From an uncultured Parasphingopyxis sp. (lineage in GTDB: Bacteria > Pseudomonadota > Alphaproteobacteria > Sphingomonadales > Sphingomonadaceae): DNA of 64,000 nt. The DNA is taken from assembly GCF_937129435.1 (NCBI RefSeq), contig NZ_CAKZNF010000089.1, positions 62,001 through 126,000 of the forward strand. Reading direction: 5' to 3'. Under the pieces are notes generated by a model, which ran no database searches, was not told the DNA's origin, and was given only the letters and a program-made list of their open reading frames with translations. The translations under genes were made by a program, and so were the position numbers. Within the stretch, counting starts at the first letter, position 1. Every line of letters begins with the position of its first letter. This document shows positions 3,209 through 63,605 of this stretch, piece by piece.

Positions 3209-3951
3209 CCCCCGATCCGCTCTTCGATTTCACCGGCAAGGTTGCGCTCGTGACTGGCGGTTCTCGCGGCCTCGGCTACGAAATGGTCAAGGCGCTGGCC
3301 GAACGCGGAGCGGATGTGGTGATTGCCAGCCGCAAGCTCGACAAATGCGAAGAGGTCGCCGCGGAGGTCCGCTCGCTGGGGCGTCGCGCCCTGCCATTTT
3401 CCGCGCATTGCGGCAGGTGGGATGAAATCGACGATTTGATCGAAGCCGCCTATGGCGAGTTCGGGCGGATCGACATCCTCATCAATAACGCCGGTATGTC
3501 GCCGCCCTTCCCCAGCCACGAAATCCCCGAAAACCTGTTCGATTCGGTGATGAACCTGAATTTCAAGGGTCCGTTCCGCCTCGCCTCGCAGATAGGCCAT
3601 CGAATGGCGCAGGGCGATGGCGGCTGCATCATCAACATCAGCTCGACCGGCGCGCTTATGGCGCTGCCAGGCGTCGTTCCCTATGGCGCGGCAAAGGCTG
3701 CGCTCAACGCGATGACCGTCTCGCTAAGCCGTGAATACGCGCCCAAGGTGCGCGTCAACACGATCTCGGCCGGCCCCTTCCTGACCGATATCTCCCAGGC
3801 CTGGGAACCGAAGAAGCGGGAGAAGCAGCCCGTCGCGCTGGGCCGGCCCGGCAATCCCGAAGAAATCGTCACGGCCGCGCTGGCGCTCGCCAGCCCCGCC
3901 TCCTCCTTCACGACAGGAGCGCTGATCCGCGTCGACGGCGGGCAGCGCTAA
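3205..3951 (+). CDS. SDR family oxidoreductase
   Basis: TGGSRGLG, NNAG and YGAAKAA motifs; ATGA overlap with the preceding ACAD. Confidence 0.93.
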   Translation: MTPDPLFDFTGKVALVTGGSRGLGYEMVKALAERGADVVIASRKLDKCEEVAAEVRSLGRRALPFSAHCGRWDEIDDLIEAAYGEFGRIDILINNAGMSPPFPSHEIPENLFDSVMNLNFKGPFRLASQIGHRMAQGDGGCIINISSTGALMALPGVVPYGAAKAALNAMTVSLSREYAPKVRVNTISAGPFLTDISQAWEPKKREKQPVALGRPGNPEEIVTAALALASPASSFTTGALIRVDGGQR

Positions 3952-21481: not shown

Positions 21482-22540
21482 CTACCAGCCGGCGAGCTTC
21501 GCCGCACGCTCCCTGTGCACGGACGGGCTACCAAGAAAGGCGCGGCTGAATAGCGAACGGCGGTACCAGATCGACAGGTCGTATTCCCAGGTATAGCCGA
21601 TGCCGCCATGCGCGGCGACAGCAGCCCGGCCGATCGACACGAAACGATCGGCAAGATGAGCCTTCGCGATCGCCGCCGCGCGCCTGGCGTCGTCGCGTGC
21701 CGAATCGAAAGCATAAGCCGCATACCAGACGAGCGCGCGCGCCGGCTCCACCTCGAGCGCCATCTGTGCGAGTTGATGCTTCAGAGCCTGGAACTGGCCG
21801 ATCGGCTGGCCGAACTGTTCGCGCTCCTTCGCATAGGCGACCGTCATGTCCAGCGCCCGCTGCGCCCCGCCAAGCGCGTCGGCCGCCGCCAGCACGAGCG
21901 CGGCATCGAAGATCCGTCCGGTATTCGCGGCCAATAGCGTCGCAGGCGCGTTATCGAGAACGAGTGCCGATTGCCGCCGGGTGCGATCGAGCGAGTCGAG
22001 CGGTTCGACCGAAACGCCCTCCCCGGCCGCGACGAGCGCCAGCCGTTCGCCGTCAAGTCCGACCAGAAAGACATCCGCCGAATTCGCGGCCTGGACGAAA
22101 CGCACGCGCCCGCTGACCCTGCCATTGCTCTCGCTGACGTCCCAGCTTTCCGGCAGCCAGTCGCCGCCAAAGGCCAGGCTGGCCATGGCCTCGCCGCCGG
22201 CAAGCCGCGGCAGCCATTTTGCCTTGGCGTCTTCATCGCCTCCTTGGGCGATGGCAAGGCCGGCGAGCGTCTGCCCGATCAAAGGACCGGTGGCCGCGCC
22301 TTCGCCGCCGACTTCAACCGAAAGCGCCGCCTCGAGCAGTCCCAGGCCGCTTCCGCCCTGATCTTCGGGCACCATCAATCCACCGAGACCGAGCGCCATC
22401 AGCGCGTCCCAGCTTTCCCGATCCACTTCGGCGTCGTCATCGACGAACTTGTGCAGCCTTTCGCTGGGCAGCGTGTCGGCAAGCGTGCCGCGGATCGCGT
22501 CCTGGATGGCGCCCTGTTCCTCGGTCAGATGAAACTGCAT
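21482..22540 (-). CDS. Acyl-CoA dehydrogenase family protein (small subunit type)
   Basis: AYAKEREQFGQPIGQFQALKHQLAQMA; AVAAHGGIGYTWEYDLSIWYRR. Confidence 0.9.
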   Translation of the reverse strand: MQFHLTEEQGAIQDAIRGTLADTLPSERLHKFVDDDAEVDRESWDALMALGLGGLMVPEDQGGSGLGLLEAALSVEVGGEGAATGPLIGQTLAGLAIAQGGDEDAKAKWLPRLAGGEAMASLAFGGDWLPESWDVSESNGRVSGRVRFVQAANSADVFLVGLDGERLALVAAGEGVSVEPLDSLDRTRRQSALVLDNAPATLLAANTGRIFDAALVLAAADALGGAQRALDMTVAYAKEREQFGQPIGQFQALKHQLAQMALEVEPARALVWYAAYAFDSARDDARRAAAIAKAHLADRFVSIGRAAVAAHGGIGYTWEYDLSIWYRRSLFSRAFLGSPSVHRERAAKLAGW

Positions 22541-22543
22541 CGG

Positions 22544-23734
22544 CTACGCTCCCATCGCCTGGTCGCGCGGCAACCCCAGACCCCGCTCGCCGATGATGTT
22601 GCGCTGGATGTTCGTCGTGCCACCGGCGATCGAATTGCCGAGCGAACCCATGATCTGGTCGAGCCACTTTTCAGGGCCCCGCCCTTTCGTACCCGGCGGC
22701 GCGGCTTCGATCATCGCCTCATCGCCGATCAGGTCCTGCGCCGTCTGCGCAATATCATGACCGATTTCGGTCAGCAGCAATTTCATCATCAAGCCGACCA
22801 TCGGCGTTTCCTCGCCAGCCGCGGCGTTGCTGAACAGGCGGTAGCTGGAATAGCGATGCGCCAACGCCCAACCCTCGACGCGCACCAGCGCATCGCGAAC
22901 GAGCGGATCTTCGATCGCCGGTCTGCCGTTTCGTTCGACCGATTTCGCAAGCTTCACCAATTGTGCGAATTGATGGCCGAGCCCGTCGGCGCTGCCGATC
23001 GCGGCCCGCTCGTGCTTCAGAGTCGTCTTGGAGACGTTCCACCCATCGCCGCGATCTCCGACCTGCCACGCGACCGGCGTCGTCACATCTTCGAAGAAGA
23101 ATTCGCAAAAAGTTGCGCCGCCCGTAATCTGCTTGATCGGCCGCCTGGTGACGCCCGGATGATCGAGGCTGAGCAAGAGATAGGTGATGCCGGCATGTTT
23201 CGGCGCGCCGGGTTCGGTGCGCGCCAGCATGAACATGTGAGTCGCGTCCATTCCCTGGCTTGTCCAGATCTTCTGCCCGTTGATGACCCACTGGTCGCCA
23301 TCGAGCACGGCCTTGGTGCGCACGGACGCCAGATCGGAACCCGAACCGGGCTCCGAATAGCCCTGTCCCCAGACATATTCTCCCGACATCGTCTGGCGGA
23401 TGAAGGCGTCCTTCTGTTCCTGCGTCCCGCGTTCCAGAAGCGTGGGAACGACCATGTTCATCCCGTTTCCGCCGACCTCCATCGGCGCACGGGCGCGGGC
23501 GAATTCCTCGCGGATCACCTGCGCCTTGACGACATCGATGGGTTGCTCGGACCCACCGAATTCTTTGGGGATGGCGCGGTAGAGATACCCCTTGCCCGTC
23601 GCCTTTTGCCGAAAGGTGGCGACATAGTCCTTCATCGCGGCACGATCGAGTTCGGCCGGATTCCATTCGCGCTCGAGAAACTCGCGAACCTCCTGACGAA
23701 AGCGCTCGTTCTCGGCGCCGTAGCTCAAGTCCAT
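22544..23734 (-). CDS. Acyl-CoA dehydrogenase family protein (large subunit type)
   Basis: GQGYSEPGSGSDLASVRTKAVLDGDQWVINGQKIWTSQG; TTNIQRNIIGERGLGLPR. Confidence 0.92.
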   Translation of the reverse strand: MDLSYGAENERFRQEVREFLEREWNPAELDRAAMKDYVATFRQKATGKGYLYRAIPKEFGGSEQPIDVVKAQVIREEFARARAPMEVGGNGMNMVVPTLLERGTQEQKDAFIRQTMSGEYVWGQGYSEPGSGSDLASVRTKAVLDGDQWVINGQKIWTSQGMDATHMFMLARTEPGAPKHAGITYLLLSLDHPGVTRRPIKQITGGATFCEFFFEDVTTPVAWQVGDRGDGWNVSKTTLKHERAAIGSADGLGHQFAQLVKLAKSVERNGRPAIEDPLVRDALVRVEGWALAHRYSSYRLFSNAAAGEETPMVGLMMKLLLTEIGHDIAQTAQDLIGDEAMIEAAPPGTKGRGPEKWLDQIMGSLGNSIAGGTTNIQRNIIGERGLGLPRDQAMGA

Positions 23735-25399: not shown

Positions 25400-25966
25400 C
25401 TAGGGTGTGTCGACGATTGCCTGAAACTCCGAGACCAGCCATTCGCGCAAAGCCGAATCGACGGGGCCGCCGAACATGTCGAGCGGCAGCTGGTCGCGAT
25501 AGGCGAAGAAGCCGGTCGAGACGATCATGAAGCGCGCGGCCTTCAACATGGCCGCCTCCCCGCCGAACCAGTCGCTCAGCGGCGCGAAGATACGGTCGTG
25601 AAGCAGCGTCCTCGCCACCTCGCGCGCTTCCGTGTCGGAAGCGCCCGACATCATGATCGGAAGCGGCTGCACACGATCGGTGCGATCCTCCACGAACCGC
25701 GCGACGATGGTTTCGCCGAAAGTGGCGCGATCGAGATCAGTGATGAGGCGGGCGTCGAGCGCGGCATCCAACGCGGCGGCATAAAGCTTCAGCTTGCCGC
25801 CGAAATAGCGGCTGACTAGCGCCGGATTTGCCCCCGCCATGGCAGTGATGTCGCGGATTTTCGCATCGGCATAGCCGCGGATCGCAAACACGTGCTGCGC
25901 GGCGGCCAGGATATCCGCCGCCGTTCGCTCCGCATCCCGGCCTTTCTCCGCGATCCGTGTTGCCAT
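25400..25966 (-). CDS. TetR/AcrR family transcriptional regulator
   Basis: N-terminal HTH ADILAAAQHVFAIRGYADAKIRDITAMAGANPALVSRYFGGKLKLY. Confidence 0.92.
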   Translation of the reverse strand: MATRIAEKGRDAERTAADILAAAQHVFAIRGYADAKIRDITAMAGANPALVSRYFGGKLKLYAAALDAALDARLITDLDRATFGETIVARFVEDRTDRVQPLPIMMSGASDTEAREVARTLLHDRIFAPLSDWFGGEAAMLKAARFMIVSTGFFAYRDQLPLDMFGGPVDSALREWLVSEFQAIVDTP

Positions 25967-25971
25967 GCCCT

Positions 25972-26029
25972 CTCTCCTCCGTTGACAGTTAAGTAAACGA
26001 CGGTTTACTTAACTGTCAACGGAGGAGAG
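25972..26029. promoter_or_regulatory. 58-bp perfect dyad: ctctcctccgttgacagttaagtaaac-gacg-gtttacttaactgtcaacggaggagag
   Basis: 27-bp perfectly complementary arms, 4-bp centre, between divergent tetR and P450; TTGACA on each strand and ggaggag RBS in both arms. Confidence 0.95.
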
Positions 26030-26034
26030 GAAGG

Positions 26035-27225
26035 ATGAACGAGTCGCACGACGGCGCGAGAGCGCCCGTTTTCGAATTCGATTATATCGCCGATCCCGGC
26101 CTTCTGGCCGATTGCCACGCGCGTTATTGGGAGCTGAAGCGCGAGGCTCCGCCCCTGTTCTGGACCAATGCCAATGGCGGTCACTGGGTCTGCAATACGG
26201 GGCCGCTGGCCAATCACGTTGTCCGTCACCCAGAGATTTTTTCCAGCCAGATCCTTTCGATCCCGCCCAATCCCGACCAGCCCAAAATGATTCCCGAGAT
26301 GCTCGATCCGCCCGAGCACCGGCCTTATCGGCAGATGCTGCGGCCGTTCTTCGAATCCAAGGCGATCGCCCCGCTCGAACAGCGTGTCGTCGACTGGACC
26401 GACGACCTGCTGGCCAAGGTAATCGACAAGGGCGAATGCGAATTCGTCAGCGCTGTCGCCTCGCGGCTCCCCGTCGCCGTTTTCATGGAACTGTTCGGAT
26501 TTCCGATGGAAAAGTTCGAGGAGTTTCGCCATCTCGTGGTGAGTTTTTTCAACGCGCGTGCGACACCCGAAGAACGGAACCAGCTAGGCCAGACGATCCT
26601 CGGCCATCTGGCGGAACTGATCCAGCAGCGCATGGCCGAGCCGAAGGACGACATGATCTCGCAGATCATAGCGAGCAAGGTCGATGGCCGCGATCTGGCG
26701 TTCGACGAGCTCATGTCGATCGGCTTTCTGATGTTCCTGGCGGGCCTCGATACGGTGACCAACGCCATGAGCTTCGGCATGCGGCACCTGGCGCATGACG
26801 AGCAGCTGCGCCAGCGCGCGATCGACGATCCGGAAGTGATCCCTGACCTCGTGGAAGAATTGCTGCGCCGCTACGCCTTCGTCGCAACGCCGCGCTACAT
26901 CACGCAGGATGTCGAACTCGACGGGGTTCAACTCAAAGCCGGCGATTCCATCCTCGCGCCGCTGCCGCTCGTCGGTTGGGATGAAAAGCTGAACCCGGAA
27001 CCCGAAGAGGTGTCCGTCGACCGCCAATTCTATCGCCATGCCGCTTTCGGATCGGGCATCCACACCTGCCTCGGGCTCCACCTGGCGCGGATGGAGCTGG
27101 CGATCTTCTACCGCGCCTGGTTCTCGAACGTCGGACACTTCCGGCAGATCGAAAAGGGCGACGAGACATGTCGGGGCGGCTCGGTCATGGCGCTCGAGCA
27201 TCTACACCTGGCTTGGGAGGCATAG
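26035..27225 (+). CDS. Cytochrome P450
   Basis: Heme loop HAAFGSGIHTCLGLHLARMEL; I-helix region FLAGLDTVTNAM; EELLRRY (ExxR). Confidence 0.96.
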   Translation: MNESHDGARAPVFEFDYIADPGLLADCHARYWELKREAPPLFWTNANGGHWVCNTGPLANHVVRHPEIFSSQILSIPPNPDQPKMIPEMLDPPEHRPYRQMLRPFFESKAIAPLEQRVVDWTDDLLAKVIDKGECEFVSAVASRLPVAVFMELFGFPMEKFEEFRHLVVSFFNARATPEERNQLGQTILGHLAELIQQRMAEPKDDMISQIIASKVDGRDLAFDELMSIGFLMFLAGLDTVTNAMSFGMRHLAHDEQLRQRAIDDPEVIPDLVEELLRRYAFVATPRYITQDVELDGVQLKAGDSILAPLPLVGWDEKLNPEPEEVSVDRQFYRHAAFGSGIHTCLGLHLARMELAIFYRAWFSNVGHFRQIEKGDETCRGGSVMALEHLHLAWEA

Positions 27226-27227
27226 AG

Positions 27228-27662
27228 ATGGACTGTCGCGTGAATATGATCATGGTGCCGGCGTCCAATCTAGACTCCTTACGCGATTTTTACGAGCAGG
27301 GCCTGGGGTGGAACCCCTGGGGTCCCGAGATGCCCGCCTCGATCATGTACAAGGTCGGCTCGGCTTTGATGGTCTTTCTCGACCGAAACTATCTTGCATC
27401 CGAAAGCGGGATCGATGTCGCCGCCACGCCGCGAGCGATTTATGCGGTATTCGTCAACGACAAGCGTAGCGTCGACGAGCAGATGGCCCGCGTCGAAAAA
27501 GCCGGCGGAACGATCACCAGCGCGGTCCGTGACCGGGACGGCGGCCTGTACTCGGGATATTTTACCGATCCCGAGGGCAATGCGTGGGAAATAGTGTGGA
27601 GTCCCGTGATGCCGGTTGGCGAAGACGACGCGATTACACTGAACATCCCTCAGGAGAGTTGA
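27228..27662 (+). CDS. VOC (glyoxalase/dioxygenase fold) family protein
   Basis: MVPASNLDSLRDFYEQGLGW; YFTDPEGNAWEIVW. Confidence 0.85.
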   Translation: MDCRVNMIMVPASNLDSLRDFYEQGLGWNPWGPEMPASIMYKVGSALMVFLDRNYLASESGIDVAATPRAIYAVFVNDKRSVDEQMARVEKAGGTITSAVRDRDGGLYSGYFTDPEGNAWEIVWSPVMPVGEDDAITLNIPQES

Positions 27663-27664
27663 AG

Positions 27665-29164
27665 ATGGCAACCGTAGAGGCCGAAGCACCGGCAAAGAGC
27701 GACACGCCCACCGTCCACCTGCATTTGGGCCATGACGCCCGCACATCCGGTGCCGGCGGCACGCACGAACACCTGCACCCGGTCAGCCAGACGGTGCAGG
27801 CCGAAATCCCGCTGGCCGGAGCGGCCGAGGTGAACGAGGCGGTGGCCAAGGCCGAGGCCGTGCGCGAGGAGTGGCGCCGCACCTCGCCAGAAGAGCGCCG
27901 TACCATTCTCAATCGGCTCGCCGATCTGCTTGTTGAGAACAAGGCGGAACTCGCACGCATGGCTGCGCTCGACGGGGGCACGACGCTGATGGTTGGCGAG
28001 CGCGGCGTTGACACCGCGGTCGGCTGGACGCGCTATTATGCCGGCTGGTGCGACAAGCTGACCGGCGAGCTGATGAGCACCTTCGATACTCGCGGCGAAT
28101 TTTCGTACAGCGTGCCCGAGCCGATCGGCATTGTCGGCATCATTATCACCTGGAACGGGCCGCTGATCTCGCTCGGCATGAAGGTGGCCGCGGCGCTTGC
28201 CGCCGGCAATTGCGTCATCTGTAAACCGGCGGAAATCACCCCCTTTGCGCCCGAAATGTTCGCACGGTTGTGCAAGGAAGCCGGCGTGCCTGACGGGGTG
28301 CTCTCGATCTTTCCCGGCACTGCGGAGGCAGGCGAGGCGATCGTGCGACACAAGGCGATCCGTAAGATCAGCTTCACCGGCGGACCGATCACCGCCCGCA
28401 AGATCCTCGAGGCTTGCGCCGAGGAGATCAAGCCGACGGTGATGGAGCTCGGCGGCAAATCGGCGAGCCTCGTTTTCCCTGATTGCGATATCCAAGCCGC
28501 CGCCGAACGCGCGGTGTTCTGGACGGTCGGCTGCCTTGCCGGTCAGGGCTGTGCTCTGCCGACACGACAGCTCGTCCACGCCGATGTCTATGACGATTTC
28601 ATCGCAAGGCTCGAGGCGATCATTGCGAAATTCAAGGTCGGCGATCCGCTCGACCCCGAGGTCATGGTCGGTCCGGTCATCAACAGCGCGGCGACCGAGC
28701 GCATCCTCGGCATGTTCGAGCGCGCAAAGGCCGACAATGCAGGCAAGTTCCTGCTCGGTGGGGGCAGGTGCGAAGGCGAACTCGCCAGCGGCAATTTCAT
28801 TGAGCCGACGCTCATCGTGGACGCCGATCCCGATCACGAGATTTCGCAGGTCGAGATTTTCGGTCCCGCCGTGGTCGTCATGAAGTTCGAGACCGAGGAC
28901 GAAGCCGTCGCCATCGCCAACAACAGCGAATACGGCCTCGCCGCCTATATCCAGTCGAACGACATCCAGCGCGTGCACAGGCTGTCCGAGCGGCTGAATG
29001 CCGGCGGCGTCTATGTGAATGGCGGGTTCCAGATCAACCCGCACACGCCGTTCGGCGGCGTGGGAATTTCCGGCTTCGGCAAGGAAGGCGGAAAAGCCGG
29101 TATCGACGAATTCCTCCACTACAAGACCGTCACCGTTGGCGTTGGCGCGCCGATCTTCGGTTGA
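27665..29164 (+). CDS. Aldehyde dehydrogenase
   Basis: ITWNGPLISLGMKVAAALAAGNCVICKPAE; VMELGGKSASLVF; QGCALPTRQLVH (catalytic Cys); EIFGPAVVV. Confidence 0.95.
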   Translation: MATVEAEAPAKSDTPTVHLHLGHDARTSGAGGTHEHLHPVSQTVQAEIPLAGAAEVNEAVAKAEAVREEWRRTSPEERRTILNRLADLLVENKAELARMAALDGGTTLMVGERGVDTAVGWTRYYAGWCDKLTGELMSTFDTRGEFSYSVPEPIGIVGIIITWNGPLISLGMKVAAALAAGNCVICKPAEITPFAPEMFARLCKEAGVPDGVLSIFPGTAEAGEAIVRHKAIRKISFTGGPITARKILEACAEEIKPTVMELGGKSASLVFPDCDIQAAAERAVFWTVGCLAGQGCALPTRQLVHADVYDDFIARLEAIIAKFKVGDPLDPEVMVGPVINSAATERILGMFERAKADNAGKFLLGGGRCEGELASGNFIEPTLIVDADPDHEISQVEIFGPAVVVMKFETEDEAVAIANNSEYGLAAYIQSNDIQRVHRLSERLNAGGVYVNGGFQINPHTPFGGVGISGFGKEGGKAGIDEFLHYKTVTVGVGAPIFG

Positions 29165-29174
29165 GGAGCAAAGC

Positions 29175-29963
29175 ATGACTTTCGATCCGAACCAGCAGTT
29201 CGACCTCACGGGCAAGGTCGCCATCGTCACCGGCGCGGGCGGGCGCGGCAACTCGATCGGCGCCGCCTATGCCAAAGGTCTCGCCAAGGCGGGAGCGAGC
29301 GTGATCGTTGCCGATCTCAACGGCGAGGGAGCCGAAAGCGTCGCCGCTGACATCAACGCCGATGGCGGAACGGCAAAGGCGGTGCAGGTCGACATCACCG
29401 ACGAGGCCAGCGTCGCTGCGATGATGGAAGCCACCAAGGAGGCTTTTGGCGGCCTCGATATCCTCGTCAACAATGCCGCGCTGATGGTCGAAGCGGTCGG
29501 CACGCCGGCGATCCAGACCGAAGTCGCCGATTTCGAGAAGCTGATGAAGGTCAATGTCACGGGCGCGCTGATCTGCGCGAAGGCGGCTGTGCCATTGTTC
29601 AAGGAACGCGGCGGCGGCAAGATCGTCAATCAGCTTTCCGCCGGCGCATGGCCCGCCCAGACCACTTATGGGGTGTCGAAAATCGCGCTCCACGGCTTGA
29701 CGCAAACGCTGGCGACCGAGCTCGGGCCGTTGAACGTGAACGTGAACGCGATCGCGCCCGGGATGACCATGTCGGATGCGGGTGCCGCGCTCACACCACC
29801 CGACAGCCCCTTCGTCAAAGCTGTCGAATCGCGCTGCGTCCTGCGTCCGCGCGGCCAGCCCGACGAGCTGGTCGGGGCGCTGATGCTGCTCTGCTCGCCG
29901 GCCGGCGACTGGATGAGCGGCCAGTCGCTCAATGTCGATGGCGGTTTCATTCTACGCAATTAG
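29175..29963 (+). CDS. SDR family oxidoreductase
   Basis: TGAGGRGNSIGAAYA, NNAA, YGVSKIALHGLTQ. Confidence 0.9.
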   Translation: MTFDPNQQFDLTGKVAIVTGAGGRGNSIGAAYAKGLAKAGASVIVADLNGEGAESVAADINADGGTAKAVQVDITDEASVAAMMEATKEAFGGLDILVNNAALMVEAVGTPAIQTEVADFEKLMKVNVTGALICAKAAVPLFKERGGGKIVNQLSAGAWPAQTTYGVSKIALHGLTQTLATELGPLNVNVNAIAPGMTMSDAGAALTPPDSPFVKAVESRCVLRPRGQPDELVGALMLLCSPAGDWMSGQSLNVDGGFILRN

Positions 29964-29972
29964 GAGGCGGTA

Positions 29973-30779
29973 ATGAGCCTGTTCGATCTCTCCGGCATAA
30001 TCGCGGTCGTAACCGGCTCGACCAAGGGCATCGGGCGCGGCATCGCCGAGCAGTTGGTTGCGCATGGCGCAAAGGTCGTGATCTCGAGCCGCACCCAAGC
30101 CGACTGCAAGCTGACCGTAGAGGAAATCAACGAGGCCGCCGGATCGGAAGTTGCCCGTTATGCCACATGCGATCTCGACGATCGCGCCGATATCGAGCGT
30201 TTCGCCAAAGACGCCATCGCCGCTTTTGGCAAGGTCGACCTGCTCGTCTCCAACGCCGCCGCGCTCGCCTTTATCGGACCGGCTGAAGACACGCCCGAGG
30301 AACAATTCACTCGCGTCCTCAACACGAATGTCCATCACAATTTCCGGCTCTGCAACGCGTTTCGGGACGCACTCGCGACAACGCGGGGGAGCCTGATCCT
30401 GATCGGGTCGATCGCCGGACACTCGCCGGGCTACAACCTCTTCTCCTATGGCGCGGCGAAAGCTGCCGTGGCGCATATGACGCGCAGCCTGGCGGACGAA
30501 TATGTGAAGCAGGGCATCCGCGTGAATTGCGTCTCACCGGGCTTCATCCGCAGTTATACGTCCGGTCCCATTTTCGAGCAGGAGGAAGCGCTCGGCGCGA
30601 TCGTCTCGTCGATACCGCTGAGAAGACCAGGCGAGCCCGAGGACATTGCGGGCGCCGTGATCTTTCTCGCGAGCGCGGCGGGCAGCTATGTCGTCGGCCA
30701 GACGATCATCGTCGATGGCGGCCGTGTGGCGCTTTCCGCGCCACCCGCCAGCACCGAATCGCTGAGCGCGTCTCGCTGA
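29973..30779 (+). CDS. SDR family oxidoreductase
   Basis: TGSTKGIGRGIA, SNAAAL, YGAAKAAVAHMTR. Confidence 0.92.
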   Translation: MSLFDLSGIIAVVTGSTKGIGRGIAEQLVAHGAKVVISSRTQADCKLTVEEINEAAGSEVARYATCDLDDRADIERFAKDAIAAFGKVDLLVSNAAALAFIGPAEDTPEEQFTRVLNTNVHHNFRLCNAFRDALATTRGSLILIGSIAGHSPGYNLFSYGAAKAAVAHMTRSLADEYVKQGIRVNCVSPGFIRSYTSGPIFEQEEALGAIVSSIPLRRPGEPEDIAGAVIFLASAAGSYVVGQTIIVDGGRVALSAPPASTESLSASR

Positions 30780-45842: not shown

Positions 45843-46709
45843 CTAGAGCAGGTCGGCGGTTTCGACGGGCGCGACGAACTGCAGCAAGTGCGCGCGCTTC
45901 AGCGGCAGATGCGGTTGGGCTTCGTCGGTCATGCCGATGCCGCCATGGACCTGGATATTGGCCCGGCCGTTTTCGAGTGCGGCCTGATCGGCAAGTCGCT
46001 TCGCCGCCGCGACATAGAAGGCCGTGTCTGCGTCGCCCGCGTCGAGCGCACAAGCGGCATAGTAGAGCTGAGAACGGGCAACTTGCGAGCGGACGGCCAT
46101 ATCGGCGCAAATGTGCTTGATCGCCTGGAAGCTGCCGATCGGTTTGCCGAACTGTTCGCGAACCTTGGCATATTCGGTCGCCATATCGCCCGCCGCCTCC
46201 GCACAGCCTACGCCATAGGCAGCGGCGAGCAGCCGGAAATGCAAGGCGGCCAAAGGCTCGTCGATCAGTGAGGGCGACGGCATCTCATCGAGCCGCACTT
46301 GCAGCGTGGAGAGGTCGAGGCCGTGCGTCGCGCTTTCCGCCGCAAATTCTATCAGGCCCGCCTTGCCGTCGAACAGGCCGAGCGCGCTGGTCGTGCCTAC
46401 GGTATCGAGGACATGGCCACGCAGAGCGACCGCCACCTTGTCCAACAAGCCGGTCCAGCGCGCCGCCACCGCCGTCGACAACGCGGCAACCGGCGCGAGG
46501 AAACGGCCGAGTTCGGCGAAGATCAGCGCCTCGGTCGCATGGTCGAGCCCCATCTCGGGCCTCGTCATTTCGAGCCAGCCCATCTCCTTCATGCCGGACC
46601 AGAGCGTCGGTGCGCGGTTGCGCGCTTCGGCGAGCGGCATGTTGCCCTCGAGCCATGCAATCGTGGCGAAGCGCAGCGCCTCCTGTTCGTCGTTGGGAGT
46701 AAGGTCCAT
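45843..46709 (-). CDS. Acyl-CoA dehydrogenase family protein (short, small-subunit type)
   Basis: EYAKVREQFGKPIGSFQAIKHICADMAVRSQVARSQLYYAA; NIQVHGGIGMTDEAQPHLPLKRA. Confidence 0.87.
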   Translation of the reverse strand: MDLTPNDEQEALRFATIAWLEGNMPLAEARNRAPTLWSGMKEMGWLEMTRPEMGLDHATEALIFAELGRFLAPVAALSTAVAARWTGLLDKVAVALRGHVLDTVGTTSALGLFDGKAGLIEFAAESATHGLDLSTLQVRLDEMPSPSLIDEPLAALHFRLLAAAYGVGCAEAAGDMATEYAKVREQFGKPIGSFQAIKHICADMAVRSQVARSQLYYAACALDAGDADTAFYVAAAKRLADQAALENGRANIQVHGGIGMTDEAQPHLPLKRAHLLQFVAPVETADLL

Positions 46710-46713
46710 CGGC

Positions 46714-47865
46714 CTATCTCGACCGCGGCAGGCCGAGCATGCGCTCGCCGATGATGTTGCGCTGGATCTGCGACGATCCGCCGGCGATCGTCGAAGCGAA
46801 GCCGCGCAGATAATCCTGCACCTGGTCGTCATCACCATAACGGAAATCGAGCATTTCTTCGCCCATCAGGCGCACCCCCATCGTCTCGATCCGCCGGCCG
46901 AGCTCGGACGTGAACACGCGGATGACCGAAGCTTCGGGGCCGGGCTGGCCACGTTTTTCGACCTCGGAGATATTGCGATAGGTCATCGCCCTCGCCGCCG
47001 CGACCTCGGCGCGCAGCTGCGCCAGTTCCTCGGCGATACGGTTGTCCCCGATCATCCCATTGCCGGTCGCCGTCTCGATCAAATCCTCGACCTCTTGCGC
47101 CTGCTTCACCTGGTCGGCGATAAAGCCGGTGCCGCGCTCAAAGCTCAGCGTCGACATCGCCACCGTCCAGCCATTGCCGAGCCCGCCGACGACATTTTCG
47201 ATCGGAATGCGGACATCGTCGTAGAAGACCTCGCAGAATTCGGTCATCCCGCTCATCTTGCGGATCGGCCGGACGGTGATACCCGGGGCGTGCATGTCGC
47301 AAATGACCCAGCTCAGCCCACTGTGCCGTTCCGACCCTTCCTCCGTCCGCAGAACGAGTTCCTGATAGTCGGCGACATGGGCGAAGCTCGTCCAGATCTT
47401 CGATCCGTTGACGACCAACTCGTTGCCCTCGACACGGCCGCGCGTTTTGATGCCAGCGAGGTCCGATCCCGCGCCCGGTTCGGAAAAGCCTTGGCACCAG
47501 ATCGCTTCGGCCTTCAGGATCCGGGGCAGGTGAAAGGCCTTCTGTTCGTCCGTCGCATTGGCGATCAGCGTCGGCCCGCCATGATTGACGCCGACGAAGT
47601 TGGCGCCGATCCACGGCGCCTTCGCCTTCGCATATTCTTCGAGCCATATGACCTGCTGGACGATCGAAAATCCCCGTCCGCCATATTCAGCCGGCCAGTT
47701 GATCCCGGCCCAACCCGCATCGAACAGGCGGCGCTGCCACGCCTTGTCGAATTCCAGCGCGTCGGCGGCGTCGAGCGGCCGGCGCTCGTCCGGCACATTG
47801 CTGTGCAGCCAGTCGCGGCATTCCTCGCGAAAGCGCTGCTCCTCGGCCGAAAACCCGATATCCAT
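46714..47865 (-). CDS. Acyl-CoA dehydrogenase family protein (large subunit type)
   Basis: CQGFSEPGAGSDLAGIKTRGRVEGNELVVNGSKIWTSFAH; SSQIQRNIIGERMLGLPRS. Confidence 0.93.
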   Translation of the reverse strand: MDIGFSAEEQRFREECRDWLHSNVPDERRPLDAADALEFDKAWQRRLFDAGWAGINWPAEYGGRGFSIVQQVIWLEEYAKAKAPWIGANFVGVNHGGPTLIANATDEQKAFHLPRILKAEAIWCQGFSEPGAGSDLAGIKTRGRVEGNELVVNGSKIWTSFAHVADYQELVLRTEEGSERHSGLSWVICDMHAPGITVRPIRKMSGMTEFCEVFYDDVRIPIENVVGGLGNGWTVAMSTLSFERGTGFIADQVKQAQEVEDLIETATGNGMIGDNRIAEELAQLRAEVAAARAMTYRNISEVEKRGQPGPEASVIRVFTSELGRRIETMGVRLMGEEMLDFRYGDDDQVQDYLRGFASTIAGGSSQIQRNIIGERMLGLPRSR

Positions 47866-61900: not shown

Positions 61901-62380
61901 ATGGCCGACGAGAAGATTTTTGCCCGCCTCAAGGAAGATCACGAAAAACATCGCACGCTGCTCGATCAGATCGAGAAAACGCATGGCGACAGCGACGGGC
62001 GGGAGGAGCTATTCGAGCGGTTCCGTACCGAGGTGATGGCGCATGCCGCCGCCGAGGAAGAGACGCTTTACGCGACCATGCTCGAAAAACCGGACCTGCG
62101 CGAGGACGCGCAGCATTCGGTGTCCGAGCACAAGGAAATCGACGATTTTCTCGAGGAACTGACCGAGAAGGAGTTCTCCTCACCCGGCTGGCTACCGCGA
62201 TTCAAGGAGATGAAGCACCGCTACCTCCATCATATCGACGAGGAGGAAGAGGACATGTTTCCCGCCGCCGCGAAGGATCTGAGCCAGACACAGGAAGAAA
62301 AGCTCGCCAGCAAGTTCGAACAGCGCAAGCCGAAGGAGCTGGAACGCGCCGCCGAGGCGGAATTCGACAGCCGCGAATAG
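61901..62380 (+). CDS. Hemerythrin-domain protein
   Basis: LKEDHEKHRTLLDQI, HAAAEEETLYATM, HKEIDDFLEEL, HHIDEEEEDMFPAA. Confidence 0.9.
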   Translation: MADEKIFARLKEDHEKHRTLLDQIEKTHGDSDGREELFERFRTEVMAHAAAEEETLYATMLEKPDLREDAQHSVSEHKEIDDFLEELTEKEFSSPGWLPRFKEMKHRYLHHIDEEEEDMFPAAAKDLSQTQEEKLASKFEQRKPKELERAAEAEFDSRE

Positions 62381-62393
62381 CGCTTGCCGCCTG

Positions 62394-62424
62394 TCTCCCG
62401 ATCGCTCACGATGCGATCGGGAGA
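62394..62424. terminator. Stem-loop TCTCCCGATCG-9 nt-CGATCGGGAGA between hemerythrin and GDPD genes
   Basis: 11-bp perfect stem directly after the hemerythrin stop; no U-tract, so terminator role is tentative. Confidence 0.5.
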
Positions 62425-62432
62425 AATCGGCG

Positions 62433-63605
62433 ATGGACATGGCGATAGCGCATTTTCGGCAAGGCAGGCGCACGAGATTCGGGTTTCGGCTGGCCGGCCT
62501 TTCGATTTTCGGCGCGCTTGTCGCAGCGTGTACACCCGTGCCGCCCGTGACAGCCGGTTCTCAACCCGATCCGTTGATCATCGCCCATCGCGGCGCTTCC
62601 GCCGAGCGGCCCGAGCACACGCTTGCCGCCTACAGCCTCGCGATCGAGCAGGGCGCCGACTATATCGAGCCGGACCTGGTGATGACCCGCGACGGCGTGT
62701 TCGTCGCCCGGCATGAGAACGAGATTTCGGGCACGACGGATATCGCCGATCATCCCGAATTCGCCGACCGCCGCACGACCAAAGCGATCGATGGCGAAGA
62801 GGTCACCGGCTGGTTCACCGAGGATTTCACCCTCGCCGAATTGCGGACCCTGAGAGCACGCGAGCGGCTGCCCCAACTCCGCCCCGGCAATACCGAATAT
62901 GATGGTCAGTTCCCCATCCCGACGCTCGACGAAATCATTGCGCTGGCCCAGGGCGCAAACCGCCCGGTCGGCATCATCCCGGAGATCAAGCACCCGTCCT
63001 ATTTCCGCTCGATCGGCCTGCCGATGGAGGAGGCGCTGGTCGCGCAGCTGGAGGCGGCGGGATATGACGGGCCGGACGACCCCGTCTTCATTCAGAGCTT
63101 CGAAATCGGGCCGCTCGCCCGGCTCGACATATTGACCGACATTCGCCTCGTGCAGCTTATCGCGCCAAGCGGTTCACCGGCCGACGTTCCCGACACGAGC
63201 TACGCGCAGATGATCACGCCCGCCGGTCTCGAAGCCGTCGCCACCTATGCCGATGCGATCGGGCCCGAAAAGGGACTCGTCATCCCGCTCGACGATATGG
63301 GTGCGCTCGGCGACCCGACGATGCTTCTTTCCGACGCGCATCGGGCGGGGCTGCTGGTGATCCCATGGACCTTCCGCCCGGAAAATTATTTCCTGCCCGC
63401 CAACCTGCGCGGCCAGGCGGGGGAAGGGCCGCGTGTTCGTCGGCGCGGCGATGTTGCGAGCGAAATGCTGGTGTTTCTTCAGGCCGGTGTCGACGGGCTA
63501 TTCACCGACGCGCCTGAAGAGGGCGTTTATGCCACCTATCTGTTCGAGCGGCCGCGGCTGATGCGCGAGCTGGAGGAAGAGGCCCGCCGCAACGGTGAGA
63601 ATTAG
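62433..63605 (+). CDS. Glycerophosphodiester phosphodiesterase (lipoprotein-type signal)
   Basis: IIAHRGASAERPEHTLAAYSLAIEQGADYIEPDLVMTRDGVFVARHE; lipobox-like LVAAC. Confidence 0.94.
   Translation: MDMAIAHFRQGRRTRFGFRLAGLSIFGALVAACTPVPPVTAGSQPDPLIIAHRGASAERPEHTLAAYSLAIEQGADYIEPDLVMTRDGVFVARHENEISGTTDIADHPEFADRRTTKAIDGEEVTGWFTEDFTLAELRTLRARERLPQLRPGNTEYDGQFPIPTLDEIIALAQGANRPVGIIPEIKHPSYFRSIGLPMEEALVAQLEAAGYDGPDDPVFIQSFEIGPLARLDILTDIRLVQLIAPSGSPADVPDTSYAQMITPAGLEAVATYADAIGPEKGLVIPLDDMGALGDPTMLLSDAHRAGLLVIPWTFRPENYFLPANLRGQAGEGPRVRRRGDVASEMLVFLQAGVDGLFTDAPEEGVYATYLFERPRLMRELEEEARRNGEN

Follow-up and report, generated by a model that had tools for sequence, protein, structure and literature searches.

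The locus lies in a 64,000-nucleotide stretch of DNA from an uncultured Parasphingopyxis sp. (the window), where a tetR gene and a cytochrome P450 gene diverge from one short intergenic region and where the P450 gene is followed by genes for a VOC protein, an aldehyde dehydrogenase (ALDH) and two short-chain dehydrogenases (SDR1 and SDR2). The features are the following, with promoter elements given as predicted.

25400-25966, minus strand: tetR, encoding a TetR-family regulator of 188 aa (TetR_N and TetR_C_16 by Pfam).
25972-26029, no strand: perfect inverted repeat of 27 + 4 + 27 bp (inverted-repeat search and chance controls).
25972-25980, minus strand: left-arm ribosome-binding site of tetR, GGAGGAGAG (GGGGAGA, GGGAGAG or GGAGG in many orthologues).
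25982-25987, plus strand: P450 promoter -35, TTGACA (every orthologous locus aligned has TTGAC, with TTTAC 15-17 bp further on).
25990-25997, minus strand: tetR -10 candidates, TTTACT (25997-25992) or TACTTA (25995-25990), the exact mirror of the P450 -10.
25993-26008, no strand: operator core GTAAAC-gacg-GTTTAC, a probable TetR site by conservation across orthologous loci.
26004-26011, plus strand: P450 -10 candidates from a hexamer scan, TTTACT (26004-26009, spacing 16) or TACTTA (26006-26011, spacing 18).
26014-26019, minus strand: tetR promoter -35, TTGACA (TTGACG, TTGTGC, TTGCGC and similar in orthologues).
26021-26029, plus strand: right-arm ribosome-binding site of the P450 gene, GGAGGAGAG (close orthologues have AGGAG or GGGAG here).
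26035-27225, plus strand: cytochrome P450, 396 aa, CYP101-like (Pfam p450, 1.1e-21).
27228-27662, plus strand: VOC/glyoxalase-like protein, next in the putative operon (Pfam Glyoxalase, 1.9e-9).
27665-29164, plus strand: aldehyde dehydrogenase (Pfam Aldedh, 4.2e-147); relatives also have it beside their P450, 75-90% identical.
29175-29963, plus strand: short-chain dehydrogenase 1 (domain search and comparison with relatives).
29973-30779, plus strand: short-chain dehydrogenase 2 (domain search and comparison with relatives).

The tetR product carries the TetR DNA-binding domain (TetR_N, 7.8e-9, 35.6 bits against a cutoff of 24) together with TetR_C_16 (9.3e-11, 42.3 bits, cutoff 26.2), and the stretch N(P/Q)(A/S)LVSRYFG of its recognition helix is nearly invariant among P450-linked homologues. 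The best solved relatives of the P450 are CYP101J2 (1.9e-73) and P450cam (2e-66), on which the label CYP101-like is based, and neither the TetR nor the P450 reached an NCBIfam equivalog cut-off. The tetR-P450 pair and the downstream ALDH-SDR genes are conserved in relatives. Plasmid or viral mobility was considered for the region and rejected, plasmid homologues being weak only and viral matches absent. The sister locus (L005, 8949-10576) seemingly carries one more short-chain dehydrogenase gene, placed between SDR1 and SDR2 and with 36% identity to the latter. Within the window, direct repeats of 71-81% identity (21777-22632 and 46114-46790, 24.2-24.3 kb apart) overlap acyl-CoA dehydrogenase genes near 22 kb, which suggests a paralogous module of these genes.

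The inverted repeat reads CTCTCCTCCGTTGACAGTTAAGTAAAC-GACG-GTTTACTTAACTGTCAACGGAGGAGAG, and its 27-nt arms (25972-25998 and 26003-26029) are 100% complementary across the 4-nt spacer, as the preliminary description of this DNA had proposed. It takes up nearly all of the 68 bp that separate the divergent start codons; from its centre (26000.5), the ATG of tetR (25966, minus strand) and that of the P450 (26035, plus strand) are each 34.5 bp away. The longest perfect arm found by chance in forty 64-kb first-order Markov sequences (loop 0-10) was 14 bp, and the next longest perfect arm in 200.8 kb of real DNA (the window and 15 related loci) also measured 14 bp and lay within coding sequence. The repeat is thus genuine and well outside what chance would produce. 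Equally borne out was the claim that each strand carries TTGACA followed after 16 bp by TTTACT, with a ribosome-binding site in the outer arm; on either strand this site, GGAGGAGAG, stops 5 nt ahead of its own ATG.

In the P450 direction, the pairing of TTGACA/T with TTTACT or TTTACA is conserved across the orthologous loci, and this conservation makes the P450 -35 well supported. TTGACA in the tetR direction is unique to the window among the loci compared. The match to the promoter consensus is 10/12 in each direction here and 6.5/12 for the tetR promoter of the sister locus. The register of the P450 -10 is uncertain: TTTACT is weak (4/6 match, with T and not A at -11), TACTTA, two bases further on, has the correct start without the -7T, and most Novosphingobium -10 elements lack this base, which is absent from >80% of N. 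aromaticivorans promoters (PMC8407463). A standard sigma-70 promoter scan did not call the P450 promoter. The predicted start sites, near 26016-26019 on the plus strand and 25982-25985 on the minus strand, would give leaders of ~16-19 nt, in line with the very short leaders foreseen earlier, and these are predicted to be unstructured around the ribosome-binding site. The two promoters had been described as fully overlapping and antiparallel; the overlap is real, but the 28-bp core promoters share 18 bp and do not coincide. With this geometry, mutual exclusion of RNA polymerase is a sterically reasonable prediction.

We compared the region with 14 close orthologues from a protein search (Sphingopyxis, Sphingorhabdus, Parasphingopyxis and related MAGs) and with more distant tetR-P450 pairs (TetR identity 43-48%) from family and order searches. 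A divergent tetR, 54-79% identical, faces the same P450 in all 14 close loci, and the single shared intergenic region between the two genes recurs in L021, L031, L032, L034 and L035. When these intergenic regions were aligned, a palindrome, GTAAACnnnnGTTTAC, stood out as conserved above its surroundings while the flanks diverged: this 16-bp core is intact in 14/14 close loci and also in L021, L031 and L032, whereas L033, L034 and L035 have near-matches. In the orthologous loci the core is flanked towards tetR by TTGAC, which belongs to the P450 -35, and towards the P450 by CAA, the TTG of the tetR -35 read on the other strand; in the close set this CAA lies immediately 5' of a ribosome-binding site of the AGGAG or GGGAG type. 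The core accompanies even a TetR of 39% identity encoded on a Massilia plasmid, where the adjoining sequence reads GTAAACaatcGTTTAC. On the Novosphingobium resinovorum plasmid pSA3 (L037, 1624-3543), a P450 is divergent from a 45%-identical TetR and the core is degenerate, GTAAGCgacgGATTAT.

The genome to which the window belongs has exactly one core site within at most 1 mismatch (a 93-contig draft, 93% complete, so that a second operator could be missed), and the next-best matches in the window have 3 mismatches. The preservation of the core amid diverging flanks, together with its single occurrence, points to the core rather than the whole dyad as the operator and to a local switch. A dedicated, autoregulated TetR operator within overlapping divergent promoters is thus a reading of the 16-bp core that conservation supports well as far as the operator role is concerned. 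The suggestion that the unit has its own TetR-controlled switch stands in this narrower form: the probable operator sits here, overlaps the P450 promoter and has one site in its own genome, but it is not the whole dyad. Indeed, the whole dyad was ruled out as operator on the grounds that only ~16 bp are conserved and that the outer arms are ribosome-binding sites and -35 regions; a multi-site regulon was likewise ruled out for this genome by the one site found within 1 mismatch. The full 28-bp form was found in no genome other than its own in a family search of 251 genomes, and a fixed-spacing pattern gave no match across the class, a result of little weight since the pattern excludes the spacing of the window itself.

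A separate 19-bp operator had also been invoked. A palindrome search of the window brought up no clearly recurring palindrome beyond one doubtful pair, so this part of the description was not supported. The pair consists of similar 19-bp near-palindromes at 3422-3440 (ATGAAATCGACGATTTGAT) and 62133-62151 (AGGAAATCGACGATTTTCT) with 3 differences, possibly a product of chance. Elsewhere in the window, a perfect inverted repeat with 12-bp arms (TCTCCCGATCGC..GCGATCGGGAGA, 62394-62424) lies at the junction of overlapping plus-strand ORFs, with an ATG at 62433 shortly 3' of it.

Judged from sequence comparison, the region is very likely a divergent, autoregulated control region for tetR and the P450 operon, with TetR on the central palindrome and an outer symmetry that is probably mutational. 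A TetR dimer would bind GTAAACnnnnGTTTAC, which would span the spacer and the -10 of both promoters, so that one bound dimer would silence the P450-VOC-ALDH-SDR-SDR operon and tetR together. The repressor would be freed, and both directions turned on, by a ligand that probably belongs to the P450 pathway as substrate or product. The outer arms would supply each promoter with its -35 region and each gene with its ribosome-binding site.

This arrangement looks like the layout of CamR/P450cam or AcrR/acrAB: its kind is known, and the symmetric allele is what is unusual. In the camDCAB system (the P450cam operon of the Pseudomonas putida CAM plasmid), a TetR-family autoregulator is likewise combined with a P450 operon, and the P450 here is CYP101-like. 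According to excerpts of PMC4592980 (citing Fujita 1993 and Aramaki 1993), CamR is autoregulated, controls the P450 operon and is released by the pathway substrate. The operator camO, given there as CAGGCTCTATATCTGCGATATACTGAGCAT, differs in its letters from GTAAACnnnnGTTTAC, the comparison being one of operator sequences, and the same excerpts describe no perfect dyad including both ribosome-binding sites for cam. In E. coli, the site of the TetR-family autorepressor AcrR lies at a bidirectional promoter for itself and its target (PMC12825309), as proposed here. However, acrA and acrR share a -10 and have start sites 10-23 bp apart, whereas the tetR-P450 promoters would have separate -10s, each in the other's spacer, and starts ~31-37 bp apart. 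This predicted distance also places them outside the definition of Warman-type bidirectional promoters (starts 7-25 bp apart and shared -10 positions, PMC10268837).

We next considered how the symmetry beyond the core may have arisen. The arms match at 21/21 positions here versus 5-11/21 in other loci, and an independent draw of the arms from the orthologue columns gives log10 P = -12, a guide only, as positions were taken as independent across 14 related loci. L005 and L018 do not differ in their intergenic stretch and are apparently one locus, the sister locus referred to above. The inner right arm of the window, TTAACTGTCAACG, matches the left arm of this sister locus, TTATCTGTCAACG, at 12/13 positions (alignment score 11), and its best score against any right arm is 5.5; right arms from the other loci reach best scores of 6.2-13 against one another and at most 5.5 against left arms. 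The resemblance of the right arm to the left arm of the sister, and not to right arms, is most simply read as a copy of left onto right.

Imperfect inverted repeats are documented to become perfect through template switching (PMC8794818; PMC7202029), and we somewhat favour an arm-to-arm copy of this type (quasipalindrome correction), a view that draws mainly on one sister locus. Here the event would be deduced from comparison and not observed, which distinguishes it from quasipalindrome-associated template-switch mutation as such. A template switch would have used the inner left arm as template for the right one and converted a right arm of the GCACAAG type to CTGTCAAC in one step; a weak tetR -35 (TTGTGC in the sister locus) would thereby have become the consensus TTGACA, and the two promoters would have been made equal. 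A stepwise route through a small insertion and point changes is also possible, because CGTCAA is already present in seven Sphingopyxis-type right arms. For the outer GGAGGAGAG, either arm may have been the source, or the two may have converged on good ribosome-binding sites. The perfect match of the outer arms is probably an accident of mutation, and the perfect symmetry as a whole a curiosity of this genome for which a mutational origin is plausible.

The symmetry might instead have been selected, equal overlapping promoters forcing an either/or choice on RNA polymerase that couples repressor and enzyme synthesis. The 10/12 consensus match both ways, the equidistant start codons and the 18-bp overlap of the core promoters would suit such coupling, and activated bidirectional promoters can compete (PMC12825309). 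However, no orthologue keeps the symmetry, so the switch can do without it, and the tetR promoter of the sister locus is a far poorer match (6.5/12). In the same study, basal activity was too low for competition at five E. coli bidirectional promoters including acrR/acrA, which tempers the either/or claim for RNA polymerase. We regard selection for symmetry as unlikely, and place just as little trust in the most complete version of the story, a natural fully symmetric promoter pair in which one perfect dyad would hold one repressor site, two equal overlapping antiparallel promoters and both ribosome-binding sites, with a single template-switch origin and equal competition of repressor gene and enzyme operon for one RNA polymerase.

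Still more doubtful is a role of the dyad as an RNA or DNA cruciform, by which a read-through transcript would hide both ribosome-binding sites in a 27-bp hairpin and insulate each gene. Folding predictions agree with it in that read-through RNA folds fully (-59 kcal/mol for 101 nt) and the ribosome-binding site stays open in leaders that begin within the dyad, but the usual transcripts would begin within the dyad and carry one arm each, the hairpin is conserved in no orthologue, and no Rfam family reached the gathering score in 25700-26300, where sub-threshold microRNA matches were generic hairpins. Finally, an assembly or amplification artefact is highly improbable: the assembly is a draft of 93 contigs and sequence searches gave no second independent copy of the dyad, but tetR and P450 flank it in the expected orientation and spacing, its arms hold the expected ribosome-binding sites, -35 and operator, and the window lies inside one contig of at least 126 kb.

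Altogether, the preferred reading, a TetR operator at the centre of a divergent control region whose outer symmetry is probably mutational, gives an uncharacterised TetR subfamily over a CYP101-like P450 operon in sphingomonads a specific operator that can be tested, GTAAACnnnnGTTTAC, and makes the GTAAACnnnnGTTTAC-TetR pair a candidate biosensor. Together, the symmetric allele and its asymmetric sister offer a natural comparison for asking whether equal overlapping promoters compete, and, if the right arm was indeed copied from the left, the symmetric allele would also illustrate the rewriting of a promoter by a single template switch.
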